A stretch of DNA of 64,000 nucleotides from Apostichopus japonicus (taxonomy: Eukaryota; Echinodermata; Holothuroidea; Aspidochirotida; Stichopodidae), in the NCBI RefSeq assembly GCF_037975245.1, contig NC_092566.1, positions 10,817,501-10,881,500 on the forward strand, written 5' to 3'. Numbering within the stretch: position 1 is the first letter of the stretch; every line of letters begins with the position of its first letter. The position numbers and the translations under genes were made by a program. A model generated the notes under the pieces. That model did no database searches, was not told the DNA's origin, and saw nothing but the letters and a program-made list of their open reading frames with translations. Shown here piece after piece: positions 8,088-62,929 of the stretch.

Positions 8088-8165
8088 CAGCGTCCATAAC
8101 CATGTGGTTAGGGTGTCCGCATATAAAGCGGGAGGCCAGGGTGCGAACCCCGGTGGAGGCTGGAA
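8088..8165 (+). repeat. tRNA-derived SINE head, copy 1
   Basis: Contains an A-box-like TGGTTAGGGTG and a B-box-like GGTGCGAACCC at normal tRNA spacing. Between them CCGC and GCGG pair around a 7-base loop (ATATAAA) with T at position 33, giving a plausible anticodon arm. The acceptor stem does not pair well and no CCA is present, so this is a tRNA-like SINE relic and not a working tRNA gene. Confidence 0.65.
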
Positions 8166-14324: not shown

Positions 14325-15595
14325 ATGCCATCGGTTATGCGAGAAGTGTTGATCACCCCAGTCTGTCTTATTTTAAGTATCTGGCAGAAATATCTAAATG
14401 GTAAGTGAAACAGTTAATGCTATAGTAGAAAATGTATTTTGTAAACGAACCACCAATATGGAAGCGTCTTCCTTTTCTGCAATATGGCGTACTGCTATGA
14501 TTGGTCTCGCGGTGTGGTTTCTGCCCACATCTACTGGATCCTGCTATTAGCTATACTTTCATTGAGCAGCCTTACCATTTTGAGCAAATGTATTTCCTGT
14601 GATATTTAACTCCTATCTTCTTTGGATAATACGTTGATATTAAATTATTTCGTACTGCTTATACTCGTTTTGAAATGTCGTTTAAAGGTTGTAAACGTTT
14701 GCTCTAAAGTAACAAATCAGTACAACAATGATGAACAACTATGAGAGCAATATTTCTAATTTTATTGTTATATCAAATACAAGGGCGTAGGAACCGGGGG
14801 GCTGGGGGGGGGGGGCGCCATTTCATTGAGCAGCCTTACCATTTTGAGCAAATGTATTTCCTGTGATATTTAACTCCTATCTTCTTTGGATAATACGTTG
14901 ATATTAAATTATTTCGTACTGCTTATACTCGTTTTGAAATGTCGTTTAAAGGTTGTAAACGTTTGCTCTAAAGTAACAAATCAGTACAACAATGATGAAC
15001 AACTATGAGAGCAATATTTCTAATTTTATTGTTATATCAAATACAAGGGCGTAGGAACCGGGGGGCTGGGGGGGGGGGGCGCCAGCCCCCCCCCAGTGAA
15101 AAATATGGGGGGGGCGGAAGTATCGTTCCGCCCCCCCGCTCCGCAAGTCAGAAAACCCCTTTTTCATTTCCAAATGAGAAAAAAAATCTCATTTGAAGCA
15201 CCAAATTGCATCTAAGGCCAGGTGAAAATGCAAAATTCTTTACAAAATGGAGTGGGTGTTGAAATGTGCTATATTGCACCAAATTGCATCTGAGGCCACC
15301 TGGAAATGCAAAAAAATCCAAAGGGGAGGGGGACACCCCCTCCCCTTAGACCCCTCCCCCAGGCCGGCCATCAGTCTTCAGCCCCCCCACTCAAAAGTAC
15401 CTTCCTACGCCACTGATCAAATATACAGTCAATGTGCACGCTACATTATTAACATTTTCGGAGATACGATGGCTTACAATTTTGAACATATTGCGCGTAA
15501 TCTCTTTGGGATACAGAAATGGGTGCAAGAATTGTACGAGCTTCATACAGGGAAACGGTTTAGAGGTGATGATCAGTCTATGCAGCAGCCAGAAG
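14325..15595 (+). CDS. Two phase-compatible exons of an unidentified protein
   Basis: Exon one is 14325-14400, with acceptor TTTACAG and donor G|GTAAGT. It reads AIGYARSVDHPSLSYFKYL and a few further residues. Exon two is 15429-15595, with acceptor TATACAG and donor AAG|GTGAGT, and reads through MAYNFEHIARNLFGIQKW. The first exon ends with two bases of a codon and the second starts with one, so the frame is kept across an intron of about 1 kb. The joined peptide is about 80 residues, mixed hydrophobic and charged, and probably helical; I do not recognise the family. The intron contains a duplicated 263-bp block and a G-rich MITE whose right end sits about 14 bases from the second acceptor. 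A further possible exon, 15887-15961, has good borders (CCTTAG acceptor, AAC|GTGAGT donor), but its best frame, DYSFPIDLITLAHWISG, is phase 0 and does not match the phase-1 exit of exon two. Confidence 0.48.
14558..15083. repeat. Exact 263-bp tandem duplication
   Basis: 14558-14820 and 14821-15083 appear base-for-base identical, including a run of six G, CT and a run of twelve G. Such identity in unselected sequence means a very recent duplication or an assembly artefact around the poly-G run. Confidence 0.88.
15043..15415. mobile_element. G-rich MITE with GGCGTAGGAA ends
   Basis: The left end AAGGGCGTAGGAACC is mirrored at the right by the reverse complement of GTGGCGTAGGAAGG. The interior has poly-G and poly-C blocks (GGGGGGGCGCCAGCCCCCCC) and two related segments reading CACCAAATTGCATCT at about 15200 and 15279. 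It is noncoding and belongs with the elements at 10323, 56597 and 57647. Confidence 0.6.
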
Positions 15596-23383: not shown

Positions 23384-24420
23384 TAGACCGGCAGCCCAGT
23401 GCACTTTGATCAAACGAACGAGGTACCAATATCTGAGTATTGGAACATTTGTGGAAAAACCCAGTATATCCAAAAGTGGATGTCTGCCGTGGTCGCTCTG
23501 CTGCATGTGGCCCCTGGGGCCGGTTAAAGGGGGCCCAAAAATGCATCTGATCAAACGAACGAGGTACCACTTGAAACCAATGTCAACTTAATGCATGAAT
23601 GCCACAAAGTACTGAATGGCCTATGCCAGACAAATTTTCTGCTGCTAAGGGCCCGCCAGACGCCCCCAAATATGGCCCAAATGCCCATTAGCGTAGCATT
23701 GACCCAGATTAAATATGCAAGGTACCACTCAAAACCGGTTTGGAATGCTCGGGTTGATCTTACAGACTATGGAAATCATCATGCCAGACAAATTTTCTGC
23801 TACAAAGGGCCCGCCAGACGCCCCAAAAGGGCCCATAAAAATGCATTTGATCAAACGAACGAGGTACCACTTGAAACCAATGTCAACTTAATGCATGAAT
23901 GCCACAAAGTACTGAATGGCCTATGCCAGACAAATGTTCTACTGCTAAGGGCCCGCCAGACGCCCCCAAATATGGCCCAAAATGCCCATTATCGTAGCAT
24001 TGACCCAGATTAAATATGCAAGGTACCCCTCAAAACCGGTTTGGAACCACACAAAAACAATATTAAATGCAAAGGTACTTTCCACAGAGTAAAGAACTGC
24101 CAATGCAAGACAAATTTTCTTCTGCATAGGTCCCACCAGATAGAAAGAATAGGTGGCCCAATGTGGCCCTATATATGGGTCTAAAGAATTGGATATATGT
24201 GCCTTGTAACATGACATTTCAAGCTCATGATTATATTGTTTCCAGCATAAATTGGAGTTACTGTACACAAGACCAGTGTTTTATCTTATTTAGCTATTCG
24301 TTGCTCTAAGCAAAATAAAGATAACACTTTCACCTAAGCCTCTAAATATTTTGGGATTTGCTGGCCTGGGCAAAAATTACAGTTCCCCACATTATAATTC
24401 TAACACTTTGAGGAAGAGTC

Positions 24421-25930: not shown

Positions 25931-27032
25931 CACAAGGCACATATAGTCTGCATCGATATACAATTCATTAGGCCCATATAGGGCCGCATTGGGCCACCTA
26001 TACTTTCTATCTGGTGGGACCTATGCAGAAGAAAATTTGTCTTGCATTGGCAGTTCTTTTACTCTGTGGAAAGTACCTTTGCATTTACTATTGGTTTTGT
26101 GTGGTACCAACTATGATTGATCATGGCCCATTTGGGGGCCCTTTTTTAGTGTGTCTGTTAGCCCGTTTGTAGCAGAAAATTTGTCTGGCATGATGATTTC
26201 CATAGTCTGTAAGATCAACCCGAACATTCCAAACCGATTTTGAGTGGTACCTTGCATATTTAATCTGGGTCAATGCTACGCTAATGGGCATTTGGGCCAT
26301 ATTTGGGGGCGTCTGGCGGGCCCTTAGCAGCAGAAAATTTGTCTGGCATGGGCCATTCAGTACTTTGTGGCATTCATGCATTAAGTTGACATTGGTTTCA
26401 AGTGGTACCTCGTTCGTTTGATCAAATGCATTTTTATGGGCCCTTTTGGGGCGTCTGGCGGGCCCTTTGTAGCAGAAAATTTGTCTGGCATGATGATTTC
26501 CATAGTCTGTAAGATCAACCCGAGCATTCCAAACCGGTTTTGAGTGGTACCTTGCATATTTAATCTGGGTCAATGCTACGCTAATGGGCATTTGGGCCAT
26601 ATTTGGGGGCGTCTGGCGGGCCCTTAGCAGCAGAAAATTTGTCTGGCATAGGCCATTCAGTACTTTGTGGCATTCATGCATTAAGTTGACATTGGTTTCA
26701 AGTGGTACCTCGTTCGTTTGATCAGATGCATTTTTTTATGGGCCCTTCTTGGACGTCTGGCGGGCCCTTTGCAGCAGAAAATTTGTCTGGCATGGGCCAT
26801 TCAGTACTATGTGGCATTCATGCATTAAGTTGACATTGGTTTCAAGTGGTACCTCGTTCGTTTGATCAGATGCATTTTTGGGCCCCCTTTAACCGGCCCC
26901 AGGGGCCACATGCAGCAGAGCGACCACGGCAGACATCCACTTTTGGATATACTGGGTTTTTCCACAAATGTTCCAATACTCAGATATTGGTACCTCGTTC
27001 GTTTGATCAAAGTGCACTGGGCTGCCGGTCTA

Positions 27033-30097: not shown

Positions 30098-31555
30098 TAC
30101 AGGAAGTGAAGCATCTACACATCCACCATAATGTCATCAGTAACTGATGAAGACTAAGGGTCTCCTATCCCTTCTCTCGAATCTAACCTACCTTACACTC
30201 CTCCCTACTTAACCCCCTTTCTACCTCTTGCCTCTAACCTAGCCCCCCCCCTTCCCCCATCCTACATCTAGTCTCGAACTAGCCCCGCTATCTTCTTTTC
30301 GTTTACCTTTAGTTGCGCTAGAGTTATTATACACCACTCAGTTCATCGAAAACTGCTTGCCCGAGTTATACACAAAACGAATTGGGAGTGTGCTCGGAAA
30401 TTCCACAGGGAATTCGAGTCGATATATAGTTGTGACGTTTGTCACAACATTGGCCATCGTCCTCGTTAATTCTTTCACTTTCCTTACATCACCATCACTG
30501 TTTTCATACACTACATGTGTCGGTATTCGTTTACATTTCTTGCTTAGGGGATTGCTATATATGTATTTTAGTTTAAAATCACCCATACTTGTTTGTAACT
30601 AACTCAATTTTATGCTGAGATTTTCAAATTTATATATTCTGTTAAGCAATTCTTTTCTTCTACCACTGCATGGATATTTCTTCTGCCAGTTATAAATAAT
30701 GAGCTATTAATGTCAGAATGACGTGCTTATACCCGCATCACATTTGATTGACATTTGAATGACACTCAACACTATTTGAAACGAAAAATTGTAATGCGTT
30801 GTAATATATTATTTTTGGCCATCAAAATGTGCTTTCCTGTATTGAGTTTTGTGTTGTATCTGAGGAACTGACATATTGTGCTGTGTGTTAGAATACGTAG
30901 CACCACCACTTTAAATGGAACAACACTGTAAATCCCTTTTCATTGAGTCTTTTAACGCGAGCACGTTCTTACTGTTAAATGCCTTTCTCCCTTCTATTTG
31001 CATGTGAATAATAATAATAATACATCTACATATTTCACCAAAACGTATAATCTCCCTCTAAATCGGAACAAACATCATCTTACTCTAAAAAAAAAAATCG
31101 TTTATTCATGCCATAAAATGATGTAATATTCCAGATCATTCAGATGGAAAAAGTTTACTTACAGAAATCAATTTTGATGAATTCTCTTCTATTTATTGCT
31201 TTGTCATTTACGAATGATTTCTCAATGTACTTGTTTATACAGAATTCCCACTTTGGAAATGTCATGACAAGCTTAAATATAAATCTTACAACAAAACATG
31301 TTTATGCGTTATCATGCAATTAAAAATATGAATTCATAACAAAGAAAAAAGTTGGAGAAGAAAAAGAAGTACGCAGCATGGTAATTATGCAGGAAGTAGT
31401 TAAGTTTAAAATACTCGACTCTGCCATTTGGTAACCAAGGAGCTACAGTGTACTTCCACTTGGTAACTAAGGAGCTACAGTGAACTGTGTTCTGTGTACT
31501 GTGACATGAAAAACGAAACAACGAACCGAACTATACTGAGCCGCTATCAACCACA
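30098..31555. other. 3' flank, no further gene supported
   Basis: Follows the stop of the LRR-like gene. Overlapping frames on both strands at 30338-30602 (about 82 codons each) have no motif or splice support. One reads a hydrophobic stretch preceded by NST and NSS glycosylation-like sites on the plus strand. I do not call either. Confidence 0.4.
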
Positions 31556-31810
31556 GTCCCCTTGCATAGAGAATGACTGTGTGATCATCGTCAGGTGTGT
31601 ATCACGATTCCCCTAGAAGGAGAACATATAATGCTACACATAATCTTAGCCAACAAGCCGAGATACATTTTAAGAAAAGTCTCCCAGGAAAGAACCTGGG
31701 CACGAAAACCAAACTGCCGAACGGCTAATCCGCTCTCAACCCCAGTCCCCTTGCATCGGGACTGTGACTGTGATCATCGTCGGGTGTGTATCACCATTCC
31801 CATCGAAAGG

Positions 31811-31849
31811 GAACATATACTACACATGATCTTAGCCAAAAGGCCGAGA
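31811..31849 (-). pseudogene. U2 snRNA 5'-end-like segment
   Basis: Read on the minus strand, the segment contains TCTCGGCCTTTTGGCTAAGA followed by TCATGTGTAGTATATGTTC. From memory this matches metazoan U2 snRNA from stem-loop I through the branch-point recognition sequence (GUGUAGUA) and on to CUGUUC, with about two mismatches in some 39 bases. The rest of U2 (stem-loops IIb to IV, Sm site) is replaced by other hairpins, so this is a U2-derived piece, not a functional U2 gene. Neighbouring copies lie at 31622-31664 and 31997-32034. Confidence 0.8.
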
Positions 31850-31996
31850 TACTTTTTAAGAAAAGTCACCCAGGGAAGAACCTGGGCACGAAAACCAAAC
31901 AACCTAACGACTGATCCGCTCTCAACCACAGTCCCCTTGCATCGGGACTGTGACTGTGTGATCATCGTCGGGTGTGTATAACGATTCCCCTTGAAG

Positions 31997-32034
31997 GAAC
32001 ATATACTACACATGATCTTAGCCAAAAGGCCGAA
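31997..32034 (-). pseudogene. U2 snRNA 5'-end-like segment, next unit
   Basis: Carries the same antisense U2 block as 31811-31849, with TTTTCGGCC at its 5' end instead of TCTCGGCC. Together with the weaker copy at 31622-31664 it shows that the U2-like block was amplified as part of the repeat unit. Confidence 0.75.
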
Positions 32035-32519
32035 AAGCCATTATGCTACACATGCTGTCTGAGAAAAGTCAACCAGTACTTTGATCCAGCCTCTATTGTC
32101 ACGTAACAACTTACAGAAATTTGTAGCACAAAAAGAGCTTACTAAGTAAAACATTCATCAAGTTATTTATTTTCTTATATTTGCCAAGGTTTATGCATGC
32201 ACTAAATTCATGATAACTGTAAGAATTCTAAAATAACATGCATTCACAAATCACCAATTATTCGGCAAAAGATGTGTTGAGCTCATTAAAACAACGAATG
32301 CTGTTTCATGATTGGTTCTTTCTAAGTTAACGTCATATCACAATACATACAAAGTTCAGCGCATCCTCGAAGCGGGAAATAACAGCATTTATTTGTCAAG
32401 TGATATCATGAAGCACAAAAAAATAACTTACTACTATAAACTGTGAGAAAAAAGTAAAACTCAACTAATGCGAGGCTACACATTATACGTTTAGGGCAAA
32501 TTAGGCAGATTCCCGTAGA

Positions 32520-33375
32520 AACATTCTACACATGATCTGAGCCAAAATGCCCAGAAGCGCTTGCTTTCTATCTGAAGAAAAGTCACCCAGGAAAGAACCT
32601 GGGCAACGAACCGACTGATCCGCTCCCAACCCCAGTCTCCTTGTATCAAGACTGTGACTATGTGATCATCGTCAGGTGTGTATCACGAATCCCCTAGAAG
32701 GGGAAGATAATGCTACAAATAAGCTACTTGTTAAGAAAAGTCACCCTGGAAAGAACCTGGGCAACGAACCGACTGATCCGCTTTCAACCCCAGTCTCCTT
32801 GTATCAAGACTGTGACTATATGTGATCATCGTCAGGTGTGTATCACGAATCCCCTGATAATGCTACAAATAAGCTACTTGTTAAGAAAAGTCACCCTGGA
32901 AAGAACCTGGGCACCAAACAACGAACACATTGATCCGCTCTCAACCCCAGTTCTCTTGCATCAAGACTGTCACCATGTGATCATCGTCAGGTGTGTATCA
33001 CGATTCCCCTAGAAGGGGAACATAATGCTACAAATAAGCTACTTGTTAAGAAAAGTCACCCTGGGAAGAACCTGTGCACCAAACAACGAACCTACTGATC
33101 CGCTCTCAACCCCAGTCCCCTTGCATCAAGACTGTCACCGTGTGATCATCGTCATGTGTGTATCACGATTCCCCTAGAAGGGGAACATAATGCTACAAAT
33201 AAGCTACTTGTTAAGAAAAGTCACCATGGGAAGAACCCGTGCACCAAACAACGAATACACTGATCCGCTCTCAACCCCAGTGCTCTTGCATTAGGACTAT
33301 GACTGTCATCATCGTCAGGTGTGTATCATGAGTCATCTACTTATGATCTTAGAAGAAAGGCCGAGAAGCGATTGT
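32520..33375 (-). repeat. Tandem hairpin array, cluster 2 (copy A)
   Basis: About five units of 155-165 bp with GTGATCATCGTC at 32662, 32822, 32977, 33142 and a diverged form near 33308. The hairpins seen in cluster 1 persist with changed bases: the stem CAGTCC/GGACTG becomes CAGTCT/AGACTG (32633 on), and ATTCCC/GGGAAC becomes ATTCCCCT/AGGGGAAC. The two outer edges carry U2-like ends: TGATCTGAGCCAAAATGCCC at about 32526, and at 33338-33372 a sequence whose reverse complement starts AATCGCTTCTCGGCCTT, close to the exact 5' end of U2. Confidence 0.75.
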
Positions 33376-34876
33376 TCATCCCAATCTTGTAACACATGTC
33401 ACATATTGTGAAACACAAAAATAACTTAAAATAAGGAAAAGGGTGAGCACAGGGTATATTCAACAAATGCGGGAAGTTCACTTGGCACATTTTGCTGGAA
33501 TGTTACAATTCAAAACACGTCCAAGTTAAAATTAGACAGTCTGCAGGCGTCGAGTTACTTTAGCTCTCCCAAAACGCATCTCAGTAACGTGATTGGTTGA
33601 TTCCTGTATACCTAATATATCACTTAATGAATGTAGTGTACGCATGTTCTATGAAAATATGAAATATATGAAGCAACAGAATCGTCTTTCCCTGTAAATA
33701 AAAATTACTACAAGCATTTCTCGTTGAGTTATTCAGCTATCGACATAATATGAATGTATACGTAATCGGAAAACAAGTTTAATGCTTCACAGTTATCCGG
33801 TATTAGACAAGTTTAGCTCTGTTTAATTGAAGTCCAATGTCCAATAATCGCTTCCTTTCGATTTATGTCATATGACAATACATACTGTATTCGGTCGTCC
33901 ATTTCAACCATATAATAAACAGTCTATAATGTCACGTGACGTCCTTTACACGTTACGATGCACAAAAGATCATTTTATTGGATCAAATAGAAACACTGTA
34001 ATTTCAACTTATGCAAGGGTTCACGCAATGCAGGTTTGGCAAATGATTCAACAAGTCTGAGTCACTCGAAGCAGCATAATCGTCGTTACCAATAGAATTA
34101 CCCAAATATTACACGTCTCTCTTTTTGGTAAACTATTACCTCCCACCCCAAATCTCTCCAAAACAGGAATTATTTACTTTGAATAAAATCCACATTTTGG
34201 TAGCAGTTTTGCTCGAATTAGGAATGAGGCTAATTGATAGCGTCAAATGTTTATGGTCAAGAAAAAAGTTTTGTTACCAATACTACGTTAAAGGTGTCGG
34301 TACTTGTCTCTCTTCTGCTACTATTCCGATCAACAAATTCCCACATAACTCGAATTATTTATATTTGAAAAAAATCAACAGCTGCTTGCGTGATAAGTTG
34401 TCCATTTGCTCGTGTGGAGCTGTTGTGGTACAGCATTGGTGTGTTATAGTGTTCTTTGCTGCTATTGTCTGCTGTAACGGCTGCTAGCTTTCGAGAGTTG
34501 GTGTGACAGTGTAGAATCTCCCCACCCAAACGTTAATCTTTTTCTAACAAACTGAAACAATAGGGAAGAGCCGAGAAACGGAATTGCTCAATACATTGTT
34601 CATGAGAGGAATCAGTCACCAATTTAACCCTCAACAAAATGGTTCTCCTGAATTACCACATTGTACCCTTGCTTTGAATCATGGATGTGTTATACCAGCT
34701 AGGGAGTCGCTCTATAGCAACTACCTGGTGATATACCGTACATAGAAATTGTTGGAATAGATAGTATTCAAGAAGTCGGATGAACTTCTCGCGATGTCAA
34801 GTATTTTACTTTGTCAAACAATCCAACCCCACCACACATTCTGCCAGATCTTTGTGATTGACTAGAGTATAATCAT
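33376..34876. other. No gene supported
   Basis: Duplicated sequence, also present at 43326-45000. A 120-codon plus frame at 34125-34487 is only partly conserved in the second copy (44238-44492) and shows no motif, so it is not called. Confidence 0.45.
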
Positions 34877-35262
34877 TCAATTGGATGAGAGAGTTAAGTT
34901 TATGGCCAAACCAGGTTTCACTAAAGCCAAGAACAGAGACACGACATCGCTAAGCACGGCAGAAATATCGGAATCCATCTTATTACGACAAGCTTCTGAT
35001 TGGCCACATCCCCATTGAAGCAATGAAAATAGTTCATTTAAAGATTCTTCGCATGGAATATAATCTCGTCTTCCATCTTCTCCTATCCTTTGAGCGAATA
35101 ACTTCATGTCAACTTCGTACATTCTTCCCATAATATTTTGGCCATCTGGTAGTGTGTTTTTCTGATGGTTTTAAGCACTTAGCTGCCTTTGTTTGTCGTT
35201 CGTGCATTTTATTTGCTTGGTAATGATAGTTTAAAGCCTATGAAATCCTGTTTTTTACAAGA
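34877..35262 (-). pseudogene. Relic paralog of the TPR-J gene, copy A
   Basis: On the minus strand, ALNYHYQANKMHERQTKAAK is followed, after a frameshift near 35160, by YEVDMKLFAQR, ESLNELFSLLQWGCG and MDSDISAVLSDVVS. This lines up with exon 1 of the plus-strand gene (ALKYYYKAK, LEVEVKFYSKESLSNLFLAL, MESDIGQIFTDIV). It is diverged, carries a TAG just upstream of ALNY as well as the frameshift, and stops before the rest of exon 1. It is oriented head to head with the intact gene, about 0.56 kb from its ATG. Confidence 0.7.
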
Positions 35263-35822
35263 AAGGGTGTCAAGCATTCGACATTGTTTGCTATCCGTAG
35301 GCGTTTTTACTCTATATTCTGTACCCGAGGTGAGTCCCGGTTTAGAGTGCGTAGTATCCAGAATGTTAGCAGCCAGTAATGCAAATATATGTTCTGGAAA
35401 TTCCAACAACAATCACAGAAATATGAACAGCAGTCAATGGGATTGAAGGTCGAACCTACTGCAAACAATTGAACTTGATCAAGTGTAATTGAAAGGTTTA
35501 ATTCAATCAATTTCGCAACAAGGAAATTTCCGATGGCGTAATGAGCGTTCCCAACGTAGGACTACACTACAACACTTCAATTTATAAGACTTTATTTCAA
35601 TCTCTTGTATTAAAGTATGCAATTTGACAATAAATGTGGGTAGACTTTAGAACATATCTGAGGTAAATGTACACAAAACAAGCTTGCATATATTAGACAT
35701 TACTGTGAAAATATCGAAGTAGTGACTAACTCTATTCGTATGTATATTTGTGTGTGTGCTCGCAGCACTATATTTCATATCCGTCACAGAGTACGTGAAA
35801 ACAACTTATACTTATACCCAAT

Positions 35823-38802
35823 ATGTCGGATTGTCGTGGACTACGCGTGGAAGGAAACAAGTTGTACTATAAAGGACTTGAGTCTGGGATAAGCCTGCTA
35901 ATCGTTAAAGAGCGACTCAGGGGGGCTTTGAAATATTACTACAAAGCAAAAAGTGTTGCCATTAACAGCGATGATTTGAGTTCTACGATGAAAAATATAG
36001 GAAAGGCATCTCTTCAAATGGCAAAAGCAACGTCAAAAGAACTTTCTCGGACAAGCAAACTCACAGATGCCGAAATCATGAAGTTGGAAGTCGAGGTGAA
36101 ATTCTATTCCAAGGAGTCGTTAAGTAATCTGTTCCTTGCTTTACGTTATGGAACTGGATTCAAACACAAAGCATGGCTCGATGCCATGGAATCAGACATT
36201 GGGCAGATTTTTACAGATATCGTCATATGTGTACGCAATTTTGGAAATTTTGATATGAGGATTTCGTCTATGTTTGTTCTATGCGGTGTCATAGAGTGGG
36301 AAGAGCTTCGGGCCGCTTTGTACATGCAATTAGCGACAGATCTCTCTGAAAAGGCCACCCAGTCCTTAGCGATCCAAGACTTTCGCGGAAGTCTACGCAT
36401 GATTCATGAGATGAACTACCCGCTGGAGGAGGCGTCTAAAGTGACCGGCAACGAAGAGGTGCAAACGGACATTAGGGTAATGAAACAGCACGCAGTCGCA
36501 CAACTAGCTACAGCTGGTAAGTACGGTAGACTATAGGCCTTTGGGTTCCCAAGTTTTTTTTCTCGAGACAGTGGCCCCCAATAAAGATGCTTCTCACCAA
36601 CCCGTACCGCTGCGCCTGGTTTTGAGTCGGCTGCGATGAAACAAAAAACTGAATGGGTAAAATTTGGATAAAAGAAAATGTACTACATCATCCGGGGCTT
36701 CTCCCTCTGGACCCCATAAGGGATTCTAGATATATTACAATGGATCTGAATTCCTCTACGAAATGCATTTCTGTCTATCAGTTAGAATAGCTACAAGAAA
36801 CTTTGTAAATGCACTGCAGATTCCGGGCTTGGGATACTTTCCACCGAAATTAATTTGTCTCTTTCTGACATTTGTTTTTTGCAAAGTCACTACGAGAGAA
36901 CAAGATATATTTCAAAATCATACAACTTCTAAGGGATTCGCCCCTAACTTGTATTTAACCCAACAAATGATAAACAGTGACGGATTCAAAGTGGCGCAAG
37001 AGACCCAGTGTGCAAAAGAAAAGTTAGAATTTCTTCCAAATGGCTGCAGGTTATCTCAATGCTGAATCTTGAGTATAAAATATTCCTTTTCCCCTCACAA
37101 AACAAAACTGTATTTTTCATTACAATTCCTGTAGCACTACAGTGGTAGAGCCCATATAGTGTAATGAAAAGTCATCTCTAATATATACAAGCGTTAATTT
37201 AACTTTGACCATTTTACAACACGGGGACAAATTTTGGTATAGTCTTCTCATAGCACGAATAATGACTACGTGCATGTTTAACTCTCTCTCTCTCTGTTTG
37301 TATTTTAAAGTGAAGGTTTATTACTGACACTTGTCATTTTTTTGCAGAATCAATGCAGAGCATTTTCGTCGCCAAAAAACAATTGGACAGCATTTTGAAT
37401 GATATGACGAAACCGAATATGAACATGGTCTATGATACACTTGATATGTTCAAAGATGCAGCGATCAAAACCAGAGAAATAGACCTGGAACAGGAGGCAA
37501 AGGCATGTTACTACCAAGGTTACATCTTTGAGAAATTAATCAATCTTAAGCACAAGGCAAAGAAGTTTTACATGCAGGTACGTCTATTCAGTCTCATTTG
37601 TCGTTAGCTTTCTAGTTTTACATTTATTGTTACAATTCCCTGGTGTGAAGTATAGGGCACACCTGTTGATTCTATCATGCTGTCTATATGTTGACTTAAT
37701 TCTGAGAACACATTTAGCGCTGAAAACGTTGGTACAGAGCTATATGCATTTTCAAGTATTTTCACGGTAGCGCCTTTTTTTCCCAAGTAAAACGATGGCA
37801 TCCAGCAGTTAAGCAGAACTAGCTTTTGAAAACATGATGTTACTCAGTCTTATCTTTGCCCCACCCCCTCACCCATGCATATTGAAATAATTTTATGTTC
37901 CTGTATTTTCGTCCTTTTCCTTGGGGTTGGGGGGGGGGCTGGTATGATAAAATACTTTCATGAAAAGGAAACTCAATGTTGTAAACCCCAATGTGTTACA
38001 AACGGCATGCCAGCTTTTTTTTTGGGGGGGGGGGGTCGACAACTATAGATATCAAGAGAGAATCTTTTTGAAACAAGCTGAAGACGGTAAAGAATATCTA
38101 TTTAACTGTTAAGTCGATTTACATGAACAAGATATATCTTTCATGCAGAAACAATATAAGCCACGGGTGGGGATATTTAATCTACGTAAGCTTGATTGGA
38201 CTTATAAACTGAAAAAACAGAGAAGTAATAAGAGCTTTGTTGCCGTTCTCGAAGAACATGGTAAAAATTCTATGCTTTCTGATGCCAAATATACACAAAG
38301 AATTTGTTGTCTCTCCTATATTCATCTATCGGTAAAATATATGTCAGTTGTGCCTATGATTTTCAAACAAATAACAACTTAGTTGTGATTATTCTTATAC
38401 CATTCTGCAAATTCTCAGGTTTTGAAACTGGTCGAGGCCTCGGACAATAAGCTTCTAAAGAGCGAAAGATGGTATAAAGCTTGCTTAGCTTCGATTAAAG
38501 CTTGGCAAGATGCTGACAATGAGCAAGACGAAGAAGCCAAGGAGGAGCGCAGAAAGAAATTTAAGGACAAAATGGAGAAAGAACTCAACAACTTATCAGC
38601 TGCCAAAACAACTGGGGGTGTTACGGAGTTCCTGAAACATATTTACTCAAAACATTCGCCAAAGGTAGACATTTTTAAATACTAATAATTATGATTCCAC
38701 ATATATAGATCTGAAATAAATATCCTGCTATTTGTACCATTATGTCATAAATTTGCCGACCAGATGTAATCAGCAATAAGATATATATTATATAGCAATA
38801 AG

Positions 38803-38844
<42 letters not shown>

Positions 38845-39195
38845 ACATTATGTAGTAGGCAGACTTGAAAGATCAGGCAAAAGTTCTCTGTAATCGTTAA
38901 TATTGTGTTCATGTATCGAATTACGTAACTGCGGAGCATTCGTTGTGAAATGACCGCAATGTGTTTACTCACTTTTACTTTCCAGAATAAACCAGTCAAG
39001 TTCGATTTCAAACTAGTGGAAGGATGGTCTGAGAAGACTCGTAAAACTAGAAAACGACTATTAATGGATACAATGAGGGATTATCACCCTGATAAGAACT
39101 CGACTGAACAGTACGGAGAAGACTGGCACTTCCTTGTTGAAGAAATTTCAAAAATTTTAAATGACTTCCATGACATCATCAAAGCAGAGAGATAA
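35823..39195 (+). CDS. TPR-like / J-domain protein, paralog A (four exons, 459 residues)
   Basis: Exons 35823-36516, 37348-37577, 38419-38664 and 38986-39195 join in phase (1, 0, 0) with GT-AG borders, giving 1380 coding bases. Residues 1-308 are helical, with TPR-like pairs (GNKLYYKG...ALKYYYKAKS; EAKACYYQGYIFEKL...HKAKKFYMQ). Residues 309-390 contain a charged coiled-coil-like stretch (EEAKEERRKKFKDKMEKE) and then TEFLKHIY. Residues 391-459 are a J-domain-like module with YHPDKN; HPD at about 424-426 is the motif by which J proteins stimulate Hsp70 ATPase. A client-binding co-chaperone role in the cytosol is inferred. The start was chosen because it begins the long conserved frame and the same ATG is kept in paralog B. 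A further open block with borders at 38147-38332 could be an alternative exon, but direct joining of exons 2 and 3 continues a helix and is preferred. Confidence 0.82.
38811..38842. repeat. (TA)n microsatellite in intron 3 of paralog A
   Basis: A short TA run. The equivalent intron of paralog B has a longer run at 62279-62382. Confidence 0.9.
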
Positions 39196-40261
39196 ATCTA
39201 TTAGACCTTTAGAATTTACCGGGAATAATGCACCATCAACTTGTTCCTATATAATATAATATCTAAATTTAAGAAAACAACAGTCTAATCTGCAACAGAC
39301 AAAGTGACGTCACTGCCATGTAAACGCTGCATTCCGAGGCATATATACTTATATAGCAGACCTATACTGATTTAAAAGTTGTAAGTTATCTTGTTATGTT
39401 TGTCACTTAATTCATTTTGTCTGAGAAATGAAAGTTTATTATTATTTTGTTTTCACTAATATCACATTTGATTGTCACAAGATATATTTAGTTTTCCTTA
39501 GTGCATGAATTCTCTAATTAGTGTAAAAAAGATAGGCATCGCCAATATAAGCCTACCTCTACAATAATGTTATCCAGACCTGATGGACTACAGCCCAGAC
39601 TAAGACACGAGTCCAAAAGTCGAGTCCACGGTACTCTGATCTCGGACTCGGCTTGAACCAGGGTTCACTGGAGTTGGACTTGACTCATCGGTAGTTGCAT
39701 TCACTTGGACTCAGAGCCTCTCATTACCGGCAATCAAACAAATTGTGTCCCACAAGACCAAAAAAAAAAAGAGACGTCTGTGAATACATTAGCTGTAGTC
39801 AAAGTTCTGCGAAACCAAATCGCTATTGACTTTTGTACCGAGAAATGCTAATGAGATCAGAGGTCTTCAGCAACATTCAGTTTTGCATAATATACAAGTA
39901 AAGGTTCTATTTAGTCGAAACGGAGAACCTTGTAGAACCTCTTTGTTGTCACCATGCAACTCGTGCAAGTGTTCGTGTGGTTACTGGTTTGTGGGATCGT
40001 CTGTGTGGCAAATGTAAGGATGATGTCACATGGGTCCCAACAGTGATGTAAATAATGCGTCGGGTAATGCGCGTGATATATCCTGTTTACAGATCTCCAA
40101 AGATTTTGTGTATAGCGCTGTAACATATCTCAATCTTAGTGCTATACTTGTGTAAATATGTTTAAAACAGATCTCGTCGTCAATAATTACGAGACGAATC
40201 GCAGGTGTAAGTCCAGTATATTCCATTTTAGAGACTTGGATGCAATGTAATACGATACGAT
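39196..40261. other. 3' flank of paralog A with a copy-specific block
   Basis: About 0.8 kb (roughly 39367-40168) is absent from the matching place in copy B (about 62842). It has no recognisable gene or clear terminal repeats. Confidence 0.5.
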
Positions 40262-41340
40262 ATGTCTTTCAAAAAGCTGTTTCGCCGTAATGCGCTTCAG
40301 AGGGCCATGGGCGAAAGCACCTTGCCGGTAAAACGGATTTTGGGATCTGGACGTGAATGGTATTGTGTTTTAATTACTAATGTAGTTTCTCTGCTTGTAG
40401 CGGACCCCAAGCTTCCGTACCCATGCCGGTGGGGGGGGGGGGGGAGCTTCCACTATGAAGTCTAATCGACTAAGTTGTGAACTGATGAAAATGATGTGTT
40501 GGTGATGTACACTTGTCGAGGAACCTGTCCCTTAGTTGTTGTGTCCTTTTACCTACTGGTCGCTGTCTCTTTCTGGAGGTAGGTGGTGGGTGGTTCTGCA
40601 TGCTTTCCGCTGGGAAGCTCCAATTTTTCTGCTTGGTTGAGTTGATATGGGCTATGGCAGGAGCTGCATATTCGAAGAGCGGCCTGATCATTATCTTGTA
40701 AATCTTCATAGTTGTTAGTGGTGATGCTCTGGGGTTTCCCGATGAACCGGCTATTCTTCGTAATACATTCGCGCGTTGTCTGACTCTCTTGTGGGTGATT
40801 TGATGGTGGTGTCCGAGCTTAAGTTTTCTATTATCGATGGTTAATCCCAGGAATCGAACTTGATTTGCGACTGGTATGACGATGTTGTTGAGTGTAAGAT
40901 GTGGTTTCCTCCTTAATCTGCTGTGCTTGGCGATGTAGAGTATCTGTGACTTGGTTGGGCTGAGTTCCATTCTCCAGTCGCTGCACCAGTTGTGTATTCG
41001 GTTGAAGTAGCGTTGTAGGTATTCCTCTGCTCTGAGTGGCTGTGTGAGGTGGTGATGTTGTATGGCTTGATATTGGTCTGGATGTGAATCCTGTAAAGGG
41101 ACCAAATTTGCTTCTTTTTAGTTGGGTGTGGGCCGTAAGACGGTCTTCTAAGTTGTGGTGTTGAGTTGGAGAATGACTGGAATGTTGTCCGATCTGAGGC
41201 CTTTACCGGTGTTGAGAATGTGGAATAGTTGATAGATGTTGGCCGAAATGAGAAAATAATCCAGTTGTTCGGGAATTCCGTGGCCGACGAATGGCAGAGT
41301 GGTGAAAATCGTATCTCAATTCGAGTATATGTCAAACTTA
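40262..41340 (-). mobile_element. Jockey-like LINE fragment with internal deletion, copy A
   Basis: On the minus strand the C-terminal part of a reverse transcriptase is readable: YLQRYFNRIHNWCSDWRMEL, SPTKSQILYIAKHS, VRFLGLTIDNRKL and MIRPLFEYAAPAIAHI. Just upstream, endonuclease-tail sequence (ISANIYQLF...GLRSDNIPVILQLN) runs almost directly into it, so the catalytic palm with its YxDD motif is deleted. The same deletion appears at 62930-64000, so it predates the segmental duplication. The 3' UTR lies at 40262-40470. Confidence 0.72.
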
Positions 41341-42420: not shown

Positions 42421-42779
42421 TACGGTTACTCTTTATCACACAATATGTACTTAAAAATTTATTCACTTTATTTACGATAACTGTTAGAATTCTAATATAA
42501 CATGCATTCACAAATCACCAATTATTCGGCAAAAGATGTGTTTAGCTCATTAAAAAAAACGAATGCTGTTTCATGATTGGTTCTTTCTAAGTTTACGTCA
42601 TATCACAATACATGCAAAGTTCGGCGCATCCTTGAAGCGGGAAATAACAGCATTTATTTGTCACGTGATATCATGAAGCACAAAAAAATAACTTACTACT
42701 ATAAACCGCGAGAAAGAAGTAAAATTCAACTAATGCGAGGCTACACATTATACGTTTAGGGCAAATAAGGCAGATTCCC

Positions 42780-43325
42780 GTAGAAACATTCTACACATGA
42801 TCTGAGCCAAAGGCCCAGAAGCGCTTGCTTTCGATCTGAAGAAAAGTCACCCAGGAAAGAACCAGGGCAACGAACCGACTGATCCGCTCTCAACCCCAGT
42901 CTCCTTGTATCAAGACTGTGACTATGTGATCATCGTCAGGTGTGTATCACGATTCCCCTAGAAGGGAACATAATGCTACAAATAAGCTACTTGTTAAGAA
43001 AAGTCACCCTGGGAAGAAACTGGGCACCAAACAACGAATACACTGATCCGCTCTCAACCCCAGTTCTCTTGCATCAGGACTATGACTGTCATCATCGTCA
43101 GGTGTGTATCACGATACCCCTAGAAGGGGAACACAATGCTACACATTTGCTATACTTGTTAAGAAAAGTCACCCTGGAAAGAACCTGGGCACCAAACAAC
43201 GAACCGACTGATACGCTTTCAACCCCAGTTCTCTTGCATCAGGACTATGACTGTCACCATCGTCAGGTGTGTATCAAGAGTCATCTACTTATGATCTTAG
43301 AAGAAAGGCCGAGAAGCGATTGTTC
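42780..43325 (-). repeat. Tandem hairpin array, cluster 2 (copy B)
   Basis: About three units, against five in copy A, with the same hairpins (ATTCCCCTAGAAGGGAAC, CCCTGGGAAGAAACTGGG) and the U2-like edge pieces at about 42795 and 43288-43322. The array has changed unit number since the duplication. Confidence 0.75.
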
Positions 43326-44999
43326 ATCCCATTCTTGTAACACATGTCAAATAAAGTAGCCTATATTGTCACATTAGAACCCTCACATATTGTGAAACAC
43401 AAAAATAACTTAAAATAAGGAAAAAGGTGAGCACAGGGTGTATTCAACAAATGCGGGAAGTTTACTTGGCACATTTTGCTGGAATGTTACAATTCAAAAC
43501 ACGTCCAAGTTAAAATTAGACAGTCTGTAGGCGTCGAGTTACTTTAGCTCTCCCAAAAACGCATCTCAGTAACGTGATTGGTTGATTCCTGTATACCTAA
43601 TATATCACTTAATGAATGTAGTGTACGCATGTTCTATGAAAATATGAAATATATGAAGCAACAGAATCGTCTTTCCCTGTAAATAAAAATTACTACAAGC
43701 ATTTCTCGTTGAGTTATTCAGCTATCGACATAATATGAATGTATACGTAATCGGAAAACAAGTTTAATGCTTCACAGTTATCCGGTATTAGACAAGTTTA
43801 GCTCTGTTTGAAGTCCAATAAATGCTTCCTTTCGATTTATGTCACGTAACAATACATACTGTATTCGGTCATCCATTACAACGATATAATAAACAGTCTA
43901 TAGTGTCACGTGACATCCTTTAGACGTTACGATGCACAAAAGTCATTTAATTGGATGAAATAGAAACAAGGTAATTTCAACTTATGCAAGGGTTCACGCA
44001 ATGCAGGTTTGGCAAATGGTTCAACTGTTATTATAACGTTAATTAACAAAACAGACAGTCTGCCTGTGTCGAGTTACTCTTGTCCTCCCAAACAACATCT
44101 ATTTACTTGATTTATTGATCCATGTATAACTTGACGTAAATGTAGTGCAAGCGTATAAGCTATGAAAATCTAAGTCACTCGAAGCAGCATAATCGTCGTT
44201 ACCAATAGAATTACCCAAATATTACACGTCTCTCTTTTTGGTATACTATTACCCCCCCCCCCACCCCCCACCCCAAATCTCTCCAAAACAGGAATTATTT
44301 ACTTTGAATAAAATCAACATTTTTGTAGCAGGTTTGCTCGAATTAGGAATGAAGCTAATTGATAGCGTCAAATGTTTATGGTCAAGAAACAAGTTTTGTT
44401 ACCTAAACCACGTTAAAGGTGTGGGTCATTGTCTCTTTTCTGCTACTATTCCGATCAACAAATTCCCACATACTCGAATTATTTATATTTGAAAAAAAAT
44501 CAACAGCTGCTTGCGTGATAAGTTGTCCATTTGCTCGTGTGGAGCTGTTGTGGTACAGCATTGGTGTGTTATAGTGTTCTTTGTGTTAACGCCTGCTGCT
44601 ATTGTCTGCTGTAACGGCTGCTAGCTTTCGAGAGGCGGTGTGACAGTGTAGAATCTCCCCACCCAAACGTTAATCTTTTTCTAACAAACTGAACAATAGG
44701 GAAGAGCAGAGAAACGGAATTGCTCAATACATTGTTCATGAGAGGAATCAGTCACAAATTTAACCCTCAACGAGAATGGTTCTCTTGAATTACCACATTG
44801 TACCCTTGCTTTGAACCATGGATGTGTTATACCAGCTAGGGAGTTGCTCTGTAGCAACTACCTGGTGATACCGTGCATAGAAATTGTTGTCGGATGAACT
44901 TCTCGCGATGTCAAGTATTTTACTTAGCCAAACAATCCAACCCCACCACACATTCTGCCAGATCTTTATGATTGACTAGATTATAACCATTCAATTGGA
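43326..44999. other. Duplicated spacer, no gene
   Basis: Counterpart of 33376-34876. It includes an extra 150 bp or so near 44015-44165 that resembles sequence at about 43515-43650 and so looks like a local duplication. Confidence 0.5.
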
Positions 45000-45004
45000 T
45001 GAAA

Positions 45005-45372
45005 GTTTATGGCCAAACCAGGTTTCACTAAAGCCAAGAACAGAGATACAGCATAGCTAAACACGGCAGAAATATCGGAATCCATCGTATTACGACAAGC
45101 TTCTGATTGGCCACAACCTCTTTGAAGCGATGGAAATAATTCATTTAAAGATTCTTTCGCATGGAATCTAATGTAATCTCATCTCCCATCTTCTCCTTTC
45201 CTTTGAGCGAATAACTTCATGTCAACTTCGTACATTCTTCCCATAATATTTTGACCATCTGGTAGTGTGTTTTTTCCGATGTCTTTAGGCGCTGAGCTGC
45301 CTTTGCTTGTCGTTCGTGCATTTTTTGCTTGGTAATAATAGTTTAGAGCCTATGAAATCCTGTTTTTTTTAC
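45005..45372 (-). pseudogene. Relic paralog of the TPR-J gene, copy B
   Basis: Same relic as 34877-35262, further decayed: extra bases near 45170-45180 break the frame between MKLFAQR (about 45210-45225) and the ESLNELF part. It confirms that the relic was already present before duplication. Confidence 0.65.
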
Positions 45373-45649
45373 AAGAAAGGTTGGCAAGCATTCGACATTG
45401 TTTGCTACCCTTAGGCGTTTTTACTCTATATCTGTACCCGAGGTGAGTCCCAGTTCAAAGTGCGTAGTATCCAGAATGTTAGCAGCCAGTAATGCAAATA
45501 TATGTTCTGGAAATTCCAACAACAATCACAGAAATATGAACAGCAGTCAATGGAATTGAAGGTCGAACTTACTGCAAACAATTGAACTTGCACTGTAAAA
45601 ACAAAATAGGTTTATTTACACAAAAAACGGGTAAATGTTAATCCCGCAT

Positions 45650-47389: not shown

Positions 47390-50300
47390 GATCGTGTCCT
47401 GGGTATGACTCTAAACTACATCCATTAGTGGGGCCTTGACTTGGGAAAGTTGAGGTTTTGGGGAGTGTGGAGCCGCCCCTTAGCCACTATTGCTCCCATG
47501 GGTGCCCTGACCCGGGGCATGAGTACCTGCTTAGGGTCCCAATTATGGGTGAAATAATGTCAGCTCTGCTGCGGGGAGGTGGACCTCGCTAGTCTTGGTC
47601 GACAATTCACCTAAGGGAGTAAACCCTGACAGGAAATCAAAGAGCGGAGCCCCTTTGGGGGCGGTTAGCTGTGTTTTCGTCAACCTACCGGCAAACTCCT
47701 GCAGCCCTGCTGGTGCCAAACGTACTGCTTTCCTTTCCTTTTTGGACCACATCAGTAATGCCGAGAGGGGGATCCTGACGTCTTGGGCAGCCCAGGATTC
47801 CCTTAAACTTTGCCCAGGCTTGCACTCTGGAGAGGCTACTTCAGTGCCGCTGTAAAATAGCGTCAAAAACAACACGGGAGACAGCAGTTACGAGTTATAA
47901 GTCACATACCGATTGGCGTAGGTACAGGCGCTACGGGTTGTCTTCGTCGGTGGGAGGGATCATCGCATTCCATTGGTCAGCTACCGCCCGCTTTAAGCTG
48001 GGCAGCCCCCAGCCAAAACGGTGCTGACCCGCCACAGTCTGCCAACTTCCTTGGGTGCTGGGAGTGTAGGACAAAATCCGAAAACAGACTGTAAATCTTC
48101 GCACCAGGCAAACAAAAAAGAAAAAGAAAGAGTAAACCCCTATTTCGAGTTGCAAGCTGGAATATTCGCACAATGCGCCCTGGCCTCTCAAGGGACCTAC
48201 AGAAAGTTGATGATTCCAGGAAAACGGCCATCATTAATCTAGAGCTGAAGAGACTAAATGTCGACATCGCTGCACTGCAGGAAACAAGACTTGCTTCAAA
48301 TGGCTGCCTCAGGGAAGCAAACTACATCTTTTTCTGGCAGGGGTTAGAGCCCGAGGAACCACGCATTCATGGTGTTGGCTTTGCGATAAAAAAACTCTCT
48401 CCTCAAGTCAGTGGAACCTCCGTCCAGTGGCACAGCCCGCATACTCCGTCTCTCCCTGTCCACTTCTGCAGGACCTGTAAACATCTTCAGCGTTTATGCC
48501 CCACCTTGCCTTCCTCATCAGAGTCAAAAGCCCAGTTCTATGAAGAGCTCAGCAACACCATTAGAGACATTCCAGCCACTGAACATCTTTACCTTCTTGG
48601 TGACTTTAATGCGCGTGTAGGCGCCGACCATTACTCCTGGCCCCGGTGCATGAGGTGCATGGGACATTTTGGCGTGGGGAAGATAAATGAAAATGGACAG
48701 AGACTTCTAGAATTTTGCTCCTACCATGACCTCTGCATCACCAACACATTCTACTCTGTCAAGCCAGCACACAGGGTATCTTGGCGACACCCCAGATCGC
48801 AACACTGGTACCAGCTAGATCTCATTGTGACCCGAAGACCTTCACTAAATTGTGTTTTAACCACACGGACCTACCACAGCCTTGACTGCGATACAGACCA
48901 CTCTCTAGTCTGTAGCAAAGTTAGACTCCTGCCTCGCCACATTTATAAAACGAAGCAGAACACTCAACATCGGTTGAACACTGCAAAGACAGTTATACCA
49001 CACCTATGTGAGCACTTCAACACCTCTATTGAAGAAGCCCTTCAAGACTACCCAGCGGGCAGTGTTGAGGAGAGATGGAACCACATCCGCAATGCTATCT
49101 TCAACTCTGCATTGACAGCCTTCGGCAAAAAGGAGAAGCAAACCCCAGACTGGTTTCAACATAATATGGCAGAATTGGAGCCACTGATTGAGGCCAAAAG
49201 GATTGCACTCACCCTCTACAAGAACATGCCTTCTAGACACAATCTCTGCCAACTTAGGAAAGCTAGGAAAGATACCCAACAAGCTGCCCGACGTTGTGCT
49301 AACAACTACTGGAAGAACCTATGTCAGAACATCCAGCTCTCAGCCGATCGTGGCGACACTCGGGGTATGTATGATGGCATGAAGAAAGCCTTCGGAACCA
49401 CCATCCACAAAGTTGCTCCTTTGAAGTCTGCAGAAGGGGAAACAATAACAGATAGGAGCAAACAAATGAGTCGATGGGCAGAGCATTACCAGGACCTGTA
49501 CTCAAAAGAGAACACTGTGTCAATTGAGGCAATTCACAACACCATACACTTGCCAACTCTGGAAGAGCTCGACAACCCACCCTCTGTAGATAAACTCTGT
49601 CAAGCCATTGACTCACTGGCATGTGGAAAAGCTCCAGGGAAGGATGGCATCCCGCCAGAAGTCATCAAGGCTGGAAAAATACGATACTCATTCACCACCT
49701 GCACTAACTACTCTTACAGTGCTGGGAGGACGGGACTGTGCCTCAAGATATGCGTGACGCTCACATAGTCACTCTCTACAAGAACAAGGGAGACAGAAGT
49801 GATTGTAATAACTATCGCGGTATCTCTCTTCTCAGCATCGTGGGAAAAGCCTTCGCACGAGTCTTACTTAAAAGACTACAGTTACTTGCAGACAGAGTGT
49901 ACCCTGAGGCCCAGTGTGGCTTCAGAGCAGGCAGGTCAACAGTCAACATGGTCTTTTCACTACGCCAGTTGCAGGAGAAATGCCACGAGCAGCAACAACC
50001 ACTTTACATGGCTTTCATTGACCTGACAAAGGCCTTCGACTTGGTCAGCAGGAAAGGTCTCTTCATTCTATTGCAGAAGATCGGATGTCCACCCAAGCTC
50101 CTTCGGCTGATTATATCCTTCCACGAGGACATGCAGGGTACTGCCCAATATGATTGCCAAATGTCAGACCCCTTCCCAATCAAGAGTGGCGTTAAGCAGG
50201 GATGCGTGCTTGCCCCAACACTTTTTCCATCTTCTACTCTTTGCTGCTTTCATACGCCTTCAGAGAGTCCGTGGATGGTATCTTTCTTCACACCAGAAGC

Positions 50301-51385
50301 GATGGCAGCCTGTATAACCTTGCCCGCCTCCGTGCTAAAACCAAAGTGAGGAAGGTTCTGATCAGAGAAATGCTTTTTGCAGATGATGCAGCATTAACAG
50401 CACACTCTGAAACTGCTCTGCAACGACTGGTGGACTGCTTTGCACATGCTTGTGCTGAATTTGGCCTGACTATCAGCATAAAGAAGACTGAGGTGCTTGG
50501 ACAAAATGTGAGCAATATCCCGGTTATCAAACTTGGCAACTCAACACTCAAAGTTGTAGACGAGTTTACCTACTTGGGCTCCACCATCTCAAACAGCCTT
50601 TCACTGGACTCTGAGCTAAACAGGAGGATCGGAAAAGCTGCCTCAGCCATGGCTCGTCTCTCTGCGAGGGTCTGGGAGAACCGCATGCTGACCACCAACA
50701 CTAAGATGCAAGTCTATCAGGCCTGTGTGCTCAGCACTCTCCTCTATGGCAGCGAGGCATGGACGCTCTATTCGCATCAGGAATGCAGACTCAACACTTT
50801 CCACCTGCGCAGCCTCGGGGAAATTCTTGGCATTAAATGGCAAGACCACATCCCAAATACAAGTGTCCTTGAACTTGCAGGCATCCAAAGCATGTATGCA
50901 ATACTCAGCCAAAGGCGCCTACGCTGGCTTGGCCATGTCAGGCGGATGGATGACGGACGTATCCCCAAAGACATCCTGTATGGTGAACTTACAACTGGCT
51001 CCAGACGCACTGGAAGGCCCACTTTGCGTTACAAAGACACCTGCAAACGGGATATGAAGTCAGGATGCATTGACCCTACTAATTGGGAAGCACTAGCCGC
51101 AGATAGAAGCAAGTGGAGAGCAGCTGTCAGGACTGCCGTAAGGCACAGAGAGGAACAGAGGGGAGAGCAGTGGGAGGAAAAGAGGAAAAGACGTCATCAT
51201 AGAGGGATCACCTTGCCTGACAATTCAACCTCTTTTCCAGGTTTTACCTGCAGCACCTGCAACAGAGCCTGTGGCTCAAGAATCGGCTTATTCAGCCACT
51301 CTAAGCGCTGCAACTTCAATAGTGTCTGACCAAGAGTGCAGTTATTCCATCGTCTCGCGAGACGAAAGGTTGCAACAACAAAAAA
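47390..51385 (+). mobile_element. Near full-length LINE with several frameshifts
   Basis: A GC-richer 5' region (47390-48170) precedes an APE endonuclease: DIAALQETRLASNG, LLGDFNARVGAD and CDTDHSLV. Two compensating frameshifts around 48395 and 48500 leave one stretch out of frame. The reverse transcriptase follows: CGKAPGKDGIPPEVIK, a frameshift near 49710, NNYRGISLLSIVGKAF, QCGFRAGRSTV, MAFIDLTKAFDLVS (domain A), SGVKQGCVLAPTLF (domain B), a frameshift near 50220, and MLFADDAALTAH (domain C, FADD catalytic pair). The C terminus has YLGSTIS, LLYGSEAWT, RLRWLGHVRRMDDGRIPKD and a C2H2 finger, CSTCNRACGSRIGLFSHSKRC minus its final residue, with a stop at 51327-51329. The 3' end has a TCGTCTCGCGAGACGA hairpin and an A-rich tail at about 51385. 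This type is widespread in animals; the clade is not assigned. Confidence 0.88.
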
Positions 51386-59182: not shown

Positions 59183-59388
59183 TGATCAAGTGTAGGCCTA
59201 ATTGAAAGGTTTGAATCAATCAATTTCGCAACAGGGAAATTTCCGATGGCGTAATGAGCGTTCCCAACGTTGGAAGATATCGATGTCGTGACGAACTCAA
59301 TTCGTATGTATATTTGTGTGTGTTCTCGCGGCACTATATTTCATATCCGTCACAGAGTACGTGAAAACAATTCATACTTATACTCAAT

Positions 59389-62279: not shown

Positions 62280-62313
<34 letters not shown>

Positions 62314-62322
62314 ATATATAGG

Positions 62323-62384
<62 letters not shown>

Positions 62385-62671: not shown

Positions 62672-62929
62672 AGCTATTAGACCGTTAGAATTTGCCAGGA
62701 ATAATGCACCATCAACTTGTTCCTATATAGTATAATATCTAAATTTAAGAGAACAACAGTCTAATCTGCAACAGACAAAGTGACGTCACTGTCATGTAAA
62801 CGCTGCATTCCTAGGCATATATGCCTATATAGCAGACCTAATGTCGTCGTCAATAATTACGAGACGAATCGCAGGTGTTAGTACAGTATATTCCATTTAA
62901 GAGACTTGGATGCAATGTAATACGATACC

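Follow-up and report, generated by a model that had tools for sequence, protein, structure and literature searches.

The tandem units on the minus strand of this stretch of DNA belong to a SINE family. They consist of nt 1-45 of the host U2 snRNA fused to a structured body of ~140 nt, and further copies of the same element reside inside U2 genes of the host. Judged from sequence, these resident copies are probably read from the U2 promoter and moved by a Keno-like LINE, with arrays forming by re-insertion.

The window analysed is the 64,000 nt at C6:10817501-10881500, within a 671.6-Mb genome of 35 contigs. COX1, on contig C35, shows its expected conserved residues (FSTNHKD, GGFGNWL and MNNMSFW) under mitochondrial code 9 alone (AAA = Asn, ATA = Ile), which echinoderms and flatworms use; as matches lie on contigs of chromosome size with numbers up to C23, the host is more likely an echinoderm. 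Units occupy 31513-33373 and 42837-43322 of the window (Table 1), and Tandem Repeats Finder assigned them periods of 186 (31541-32033) and 165 (32857-33328 and 42868-43276). Cluster 1 holds three units, one of them truncated. A sequence-only reading of the window had proposed that cluster 2 is repeated in copy B with a different number of units, and this was found to be so, with five units in the former and three in the latter. Both end in a U2-head fragment detected by blastn of U2, and copy B lies inside a segmental duplication in which 32197-35477 pairs with 42461-45590.

Table 1. Positions of the U2-headed units and head fragments in the window
Feature	Position	Strand	Remarks
Cluster 1 unit 1, SINE copy with U2 head	31856..32041	-	U2 nt 4-45 match at 31997-32038
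Cluster 1 unit 2, SINE copy	31670..31855	-	U2 nt 7-45 match at 31811-31849
Cluster 1 unit 3, SINE copy, 3' end truncated	31513..31669	-	Repeat comparison
Cluster 2 unit 1, older copy	33211..33373	-	Head starts exactly with U2 nt 1-17 (33356-33372)
Cluster 2 unit 2	33046..33210	-	Head without U2 stem I
Cluster 2 unit 3	32881..33045	-	Head without U2 stem I
Cluster 2 unit 4	32731..32880	-	Without U2 stem I and part of first body hairpin
Cluster 2 unit 5	32573..32730	-	Head without U2 stem I
U2-head fragment, end of cluster 2	32518..32561	-	Rfam U2 33.9 bits over 32382-32561, head alone credible
Copy B unit 1	43159..43322	-	U2 nt 1-17 at 43304-43320
Copy B unit 2	42994..43158	-	
Copy B unit 3	42837..42993	-	
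U2-head fragment, end of copy B	42783..42823	-	blastn of U2

The presence of an antisense U2 5' segment in the tandem units, which the sequence-only reading had recognised, was confirmed. In blastn, U2 matched two window units with E values of 8e-13 and 3e-12, and the Rfam U2 model (RF00004), run with relaxed filters, aligned to the minus strand with scores of 42.5, 42.3, 33.9 and 22.9 bits. All four lie below the gathering score of 46, so that the window holds no U2 match at the Rfam gathering threshold, an outcome that the reading had named as counting against it; what the window does contain is U2 heads below that threshold. The credible part of the alignment is nt 1-45 alone, comprising stem I and the branch-point recognition sequence, and this short U2 part explains why no window copy attains the gathering score. 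A near-consensus copy taken from the genome scored 46.5 bits against the same model. The origin of the head was traced by a difference between the host U2 (GATCATG) and the human sequence used for comparison (GATCAAG). All 38 of the 38 units holding AAGATC continue with the AT of the host, and none with the AA of the human sequence; the SINE head therefore derives from host U2.

Copies of the unit were sought throughout the genome, as had been proposed, and proved to be dispersed. A 35-nt body pattern gave 1,827 matches at up to three mismatches, and the body of the young subfamily gave 368 at up to one mismatch; the control yielded none in either case (a reversed pattern for the first). The element is 189-193 nt long and non-coding, and is far too short to carry a reverse transcriptase of its own. 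TSD-like matches of at least 10 nt flanked 15 of the 27 loci compared, as opposed to 11 of 702 mismatched pairs. L041, one of the 15, sits in a TA repeat; the other 12 loci had no such match. This comparison set aside L046 (which coincides with L011), L010 (which lies inside another copy), the residents L037 and L050 and the window, and its flanks hold a few bases of the element in matched and mismatched pairs alike. Clear TSDs were GTACCTTTCCTAT (L024), TACCTWTTGAAGGGC (L012), GATAAACAMAGGTC (L020), TATTACTAGTGAT (L026) and attggctgtagtcc (L048). Across 28 loci (L009-L028, L031, L041-L045, L047 and L048), of which L009-L028 come from the best matches among 40 scored of 2,414 candidates and over-represent close and tandem copies, the 5' end starts at U2 nt 1-7 in 22, and the 3' join reads AG/TA in 14 when counted by eye. 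Copies typically end in CTTAAAAAG.

Because the copies combine TSD-like matches, starts at U2 nt 1-7, dispersal and the common CTTAAAAAG end, the family of the window units is a SINE. An snRNA-derived SINE was one of three candidates offered by the sequence-only reading, and it is the one that fits best. The main correction to that reading concerns not the observation, which was real, but its setting: the units belong to a dispersed family that also has copies in U2 genes. No U2 fragment was found in viral contigs.

The host U2 genes are arrayed in tandem on contig C16, spaced 645 bp apart, and four more lie on C15. At least 46 U2 genes were scored, and a pattern for the 3' part of U2 occurred at 88 places, 84 on C16 and four on C15. 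In the loci read from the array at 30.97-31.17 Mb of C16, intact U2 genes are 100% identical over 194 nt. Junctions between the SINE and the 3' part of U2, allowing three mismatches, were found seven times: six are exact and lie on C16 (31,006,752-31,134,575), where they adjoin the Keno/Utopia site in U2, and one, with a single mismatch, is on C20. The SINE junction is thus present at six of the 84 places on C16, and a junction of another type, AATCTG, belonging to a LINE of the array (LINE a, below), at seven.

Resident copies were read in L037, L050 and L053-L055. One U2 gene in L037 holds a SINE, and L050 contains three SINE-holding U2 genes among intact ones, one of the SINEs being 5'-truncated after U2 nt 53. 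In L054 a truncated SINE lies in a U2 gene that already contains a second LINE (LINE b), and TATCTGTTCTTTTCAGC (nt 37-53) flanks it on both sides. Two SINEs are nested within one U2 gene in L055; on C20, L053 holds an old SINE in a U2 copy that is itself old. The join between SINE and U2 could be placed anywhere from nt 34/35 to nt 36/37, since the end of the element matches U2 there. The TSDs of L012, L020 and L026 put the join after AAAAAG, and it was therefore assigned to nt 36/37.

The surroundings of the residents are those of a U2 gene. The 450 bp upstream of each of the three L050 residents tested are identical to the intact U2 gene at 449 positions, so that all three keep the promoter, and their 3' flank is likewise near-identical to the intact gene; for L055 the upstream identity is 267 of 268. 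The U2 promoter was absent from 29 dispersed loci (among which L011 and L046 are one place and L053 is the old U2 copy) in a search that does find it in L050. The resident bodies are matched at 139 of 139 positions by those of one L024 unit, both L026 units and L041, and in the body tree three residents fall within a set of seven identical rows.

A model of mobility built on these sequences has three steps. The U2 promoter would drive transcription of resident copies, and the transcript, starting at U2 nt 1, would comprise U2 nt 1-45 and the body. A Keno-like LINE of the same array would reverse-transcribe this RNA by target-primed reverse transcription, and the new copies would enter U2 genes or other sites, mostly ones starting with TA. 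Transcription from the U2 promoter would best account for heads that start at U2 nt 1 and for a promoter that is present at the residents and not at the dispersed loci. Several points count against the model. The residents may be places where the element landed and not where it came from, and the interrupted gene continues into U2, whereas the proposed RNA ends at the body. On the same side stand the 12 loci with no TSD-like match, the small share of U2 3' parts on C16 (six of 84) with the SINE junction, a junction missing from the C16 array, spacings other than those predicted, moderate tree support and a body dissimilar to the LINEs compared (all given above or below).

Junctions between U2 and the body are of more than one kind. 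The junction GTTCCCTTAGGG of the resident at C16:31132441 recurs exactly at 57 other places (58 in all). A second junction, GTTCTTTTAGGG, which lies four bases further into U2, gave 30 matches at up to one mismatch, 10 of them exact, and none in the U2 array of C16. Several U2/body junctions thus propagate, which may come about through fresh fusion, conversion with U2 or mutation. One possibility, held tentatively, is that a SINE with no promoter of its own cycles through U2 genes, acquiring the U2 promoter and a fresh head there, and that only interrupted genes launch copies. A fresh head gained at each passage would then account for the several junctions, and Pol II would transcribe the SINE from an snRNA promoter captured by the element.

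The SINEs with tRNA-, 7SL- and 5S-derived heads treated in PMC10886601 carry Pol III promoters. That the present element likewise has an internal Pol III promoter, its U2 residents being mere insertions into a target, is unlikely. A TTTTT run, which is the Pol III stop signal, does occur near the end of the body, but it is followed by CTTAAAAAG, and as this downstream sequence is copied, the RNA would not have ended at TTTTT. When the young form was compared with the A-box and B-box consensus, the best matches covered six of nine and six of 10 positions, values reached by 1990 and 1974 of 2000 shuffles, and both boxes were accordingly dropped as candidates. With the boxes at chance level, the element behaves as a SINE but cannot be called a classical Pol III one.

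A further alternative is that the head was added when reverse transcriptase jumped from body RNA onto U2 snRNA, with no U2-resident source. At the 5' ends of L015, L020 and L053 an internal piece of the U2 head is present a second time, as would follow from a template switch by the enzyme, and PMC3414825 reports that R2 makes jumps to U12 and tRNA. However, a single junction is shared by many copies (58 exact), which argues that the head is inherited within subfamilies, and residents with an intact promoter exist. Such jumping is therefore a decidedly unlikely source of the head.

LINEs that may move the U2-headed SINE were found in the U2 array itself. L049 contains a full-length LINE of 5.04 kb (LINE a), whose insertion in a U2 gene falls between U2 nt 30 and 38. 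Its open frames encode 410 aa (zf-CCHC, a zinc knuckle) and 1,157 aa (APE, RT and zf-RVT; PF03372, E 3.6e-20; PF00078, E 9.8e-34). According to PMC4640811, Utopia encodes RLE and Keno encodes APE; an APE combined with U2 targeting therefore makes LINE a resemble Keno and not the RLE-encoding Utopia. The same text describes Keno and Utopia as inserting into the same U2 region, with U2 downstream of them resuming at nt 39 as against a join near nt 36/37 for the SINE and near nt 37/38 for LINE a, and as autonomous, unlike the SINE. The ends of LINE b and of a third LINE (LINE c) join U2 as AAAG/TATCTG, which is the join of the SINE. The SINE body showed no significant similarity to LINE a or to the sampled parts of LINEs b and c, the best match being an 11-mer, and a derivation of the body from these sequences was dropped. 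As the body thus shares no LINE sequence, the case for a partner LINE is drawn from the join and the A-rich end. Several LINE types occur in the U2 array (L032, L033, L036, L039, L040, L049 and L050), an APE having been demonstrated for one of them; in their joins, U2 breaks off after nt 25-31, 45 or 50 and resumes at about nt 37 or 38.

Short arrays such as cluster 1 would arise by repeated insertion at one target. New copies are expected to land on old ones, since the U2 head of every copy contains the target and the flank of the target is duplicated on insertion. Insertion at nt 36/37 of an older head predicts a spacing equal to the element length minus 36, i.e., 153 or 157. Among the 10 distinct spacings of the clusters listed, three are 153, 154 and 157, and the other seven fall at 103-145, where units are shortened, or at 199-211, where a spacer adds to the element; a further spacing of 153 separates C16:11765835 and 11765988. 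Between the units of L024 and of L026 the TSD sequence is found again. In the tree the third unit of L024 falls with L027 (89/91), and a cluster-1 unit with L014 (90/80), instead of with their neighbours; support for both is moderate, below the 95 mark, and the bootstrap had not stabilised. The two L026 units are identical in body, so duplication may account for that pair.

Cluster 2 has a different history. A single clade (support 99/94) unites its five units with the three of copy B, which indicates that cluster 2 was amplified locally, and U2 stem I is missing from most units of the cluster; the cluster would later have been copied within the segmental duplication. This clade and the tandem periods of 165 and 186 are what would be expected of a satellite seeded by a U2 pseudogene and spread by tandem duplication of DNA only, and PMC4640811 mentions 'U2_sat' satellite repeats of Ciona that derive from U2 genes. 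For the family as a whole, however, the satellite is improbable. Each of the eight pattern-search loci (L041-L048) has a single copy within ~3 kb, and among the 100 exact body-pattern matches listed, at least seven lie in three tandem clusters, an underestimate because neighbours with mismatches fall outside those matches. The TSDs, together with TSD-like spacers between units, suit retroposition. The satellite proposed by the sequence-only reading therefore stands for the local amplification of cluster 2 and is unlikely for the family.

The units fold on their own strand, with z-scores of -3.3 for a cluster-1 unit and -2.5 for a cluster-2 unit, whereas the opposite strand of the cluster-2 unit tested folds no better than its shuffles (+0.1). 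The change from C-G to T-A in the CAGTCC/GGACTG stem, in which the sequence-only reading had seen a hint of selection on structure, is real; within the units aligned, T-A at the two inner pairs of this stem is confined to those of cluster 2 and copy B. The alignment comprised 52 of 55 units, with 51 distinct rows, and left aside three 5'-truncated ones (L023:348-486, L023:1162-1317 and L050:3062-3235). Cells were paired in 93-97% of cases in five of the six helices and in 86% in the helix of a single pair. Over the whole structure, the covariation score and the number of doubly changed cells were each matched by two of 500 shuffles; doubly changed pairs were matched in 162 of 500 and further pair types in 282 of 500. 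These results lend weak support to structural selection on the unit, and the covariation is not taken as evidence for a cellular function. A functional noncoding RNA that derives from U2 and is selected for its structure, which the folding, the pairing and the covariation score would suit, is scarcely credible, since doubly changed pairs are no commoner than in shuffles, the body outside the U2 head has no convincing Rfam family (chance-level matches only) and some window copies lack U2 stem I or a hairpin. Of that proposal in the sequence-only reading, the U2 origin stands, and the selection is backed by weak covariation. A hammerhead ribozyme, a Helitron end, an Sm site and a relationship between the body and other snRNAs were dropped on inspection by eye.

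SINEs with U1 or U2 heads (SINEU) are a recognised class in PMC8143547, PMC5753468 and PMC8010984. The present element resembles them as a short non-autonomous element with a U2-derived head; it is set beside SINEU by description and not by body sequence, and it differs in its probable echinoderm host and in having copies in the host U2 array. SINEU reportedly comprises crocodilian SINEs with U1 or U2 snRNA heads, and Kojima in 2015 is said to have thought them moved by a Tx1-clade LINE. Here the corresponding partner would be an APE-encoding LINE in the same U2 array that has no 3' sequence in common with the SINE. The closest mechanistic analogue is the R2 SIDEs. As described in PMC3414825, these too are short non-autonomous elements in a multicopy RNA gene; they are cotranscribed with the host gene and moved by the LINE of that site, as proposed for the SINE, and they consist of joined R2/R1 ends, whereas the SINE body matches none of the LINE sequence compared. 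Unlike R2 SIDEs, the SINE disperses widely and carries the 5' end of the host gene. The U2_sat of Ciona, compared by its description in PMC4640811, is likewise a repeat derived from U2 genes.

With U1- and U2-headed SINEs already known, what may be new here is residency in U2 genes: the literature search, whose coverage left most subscription papers outside, returned no U2-gene-resident SINE among the matches listed. How an snRNA-headed SINE is transcribed after moving is a puzzle, because U1 and U2 genes have external promoters. Candidate source copies with intact U2 promoters are visible in this genome, and the question of transcription is therefore directly testable. What R2 SIDEs are to rDNA, this small element would be to snRNA genes, and an element that carries its own landing site would offer a simple route from retroposition to tandem repeats.

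Other features were seen in the window. A LINE at 48095-51329 has APE and RT domains split across several reading frames. At 8090-8161 there is a tRNA-like Rfam match of 37 bits that ARAGORN did not call, with a similar stretch near 8400; the former is perhaps a tRNA-headed SINE. Direct segmental duplications, 86-91% identical, join 35707-39364 to 59273-62840 and 40171-41320 to 62841-64000, in addition to the pair that includes copy B. An ORF of 245 aa is present in two copies within the duplications (35799-36536, which has no Pfam match, and 59365-60102). Long inverted repeats at 23384-24046 and 26227-27032 are up to 99% identical and contain sub-repeats of 140-300 bp, and a perfect tandem duplication of 264 bp occupies 14557-15084.
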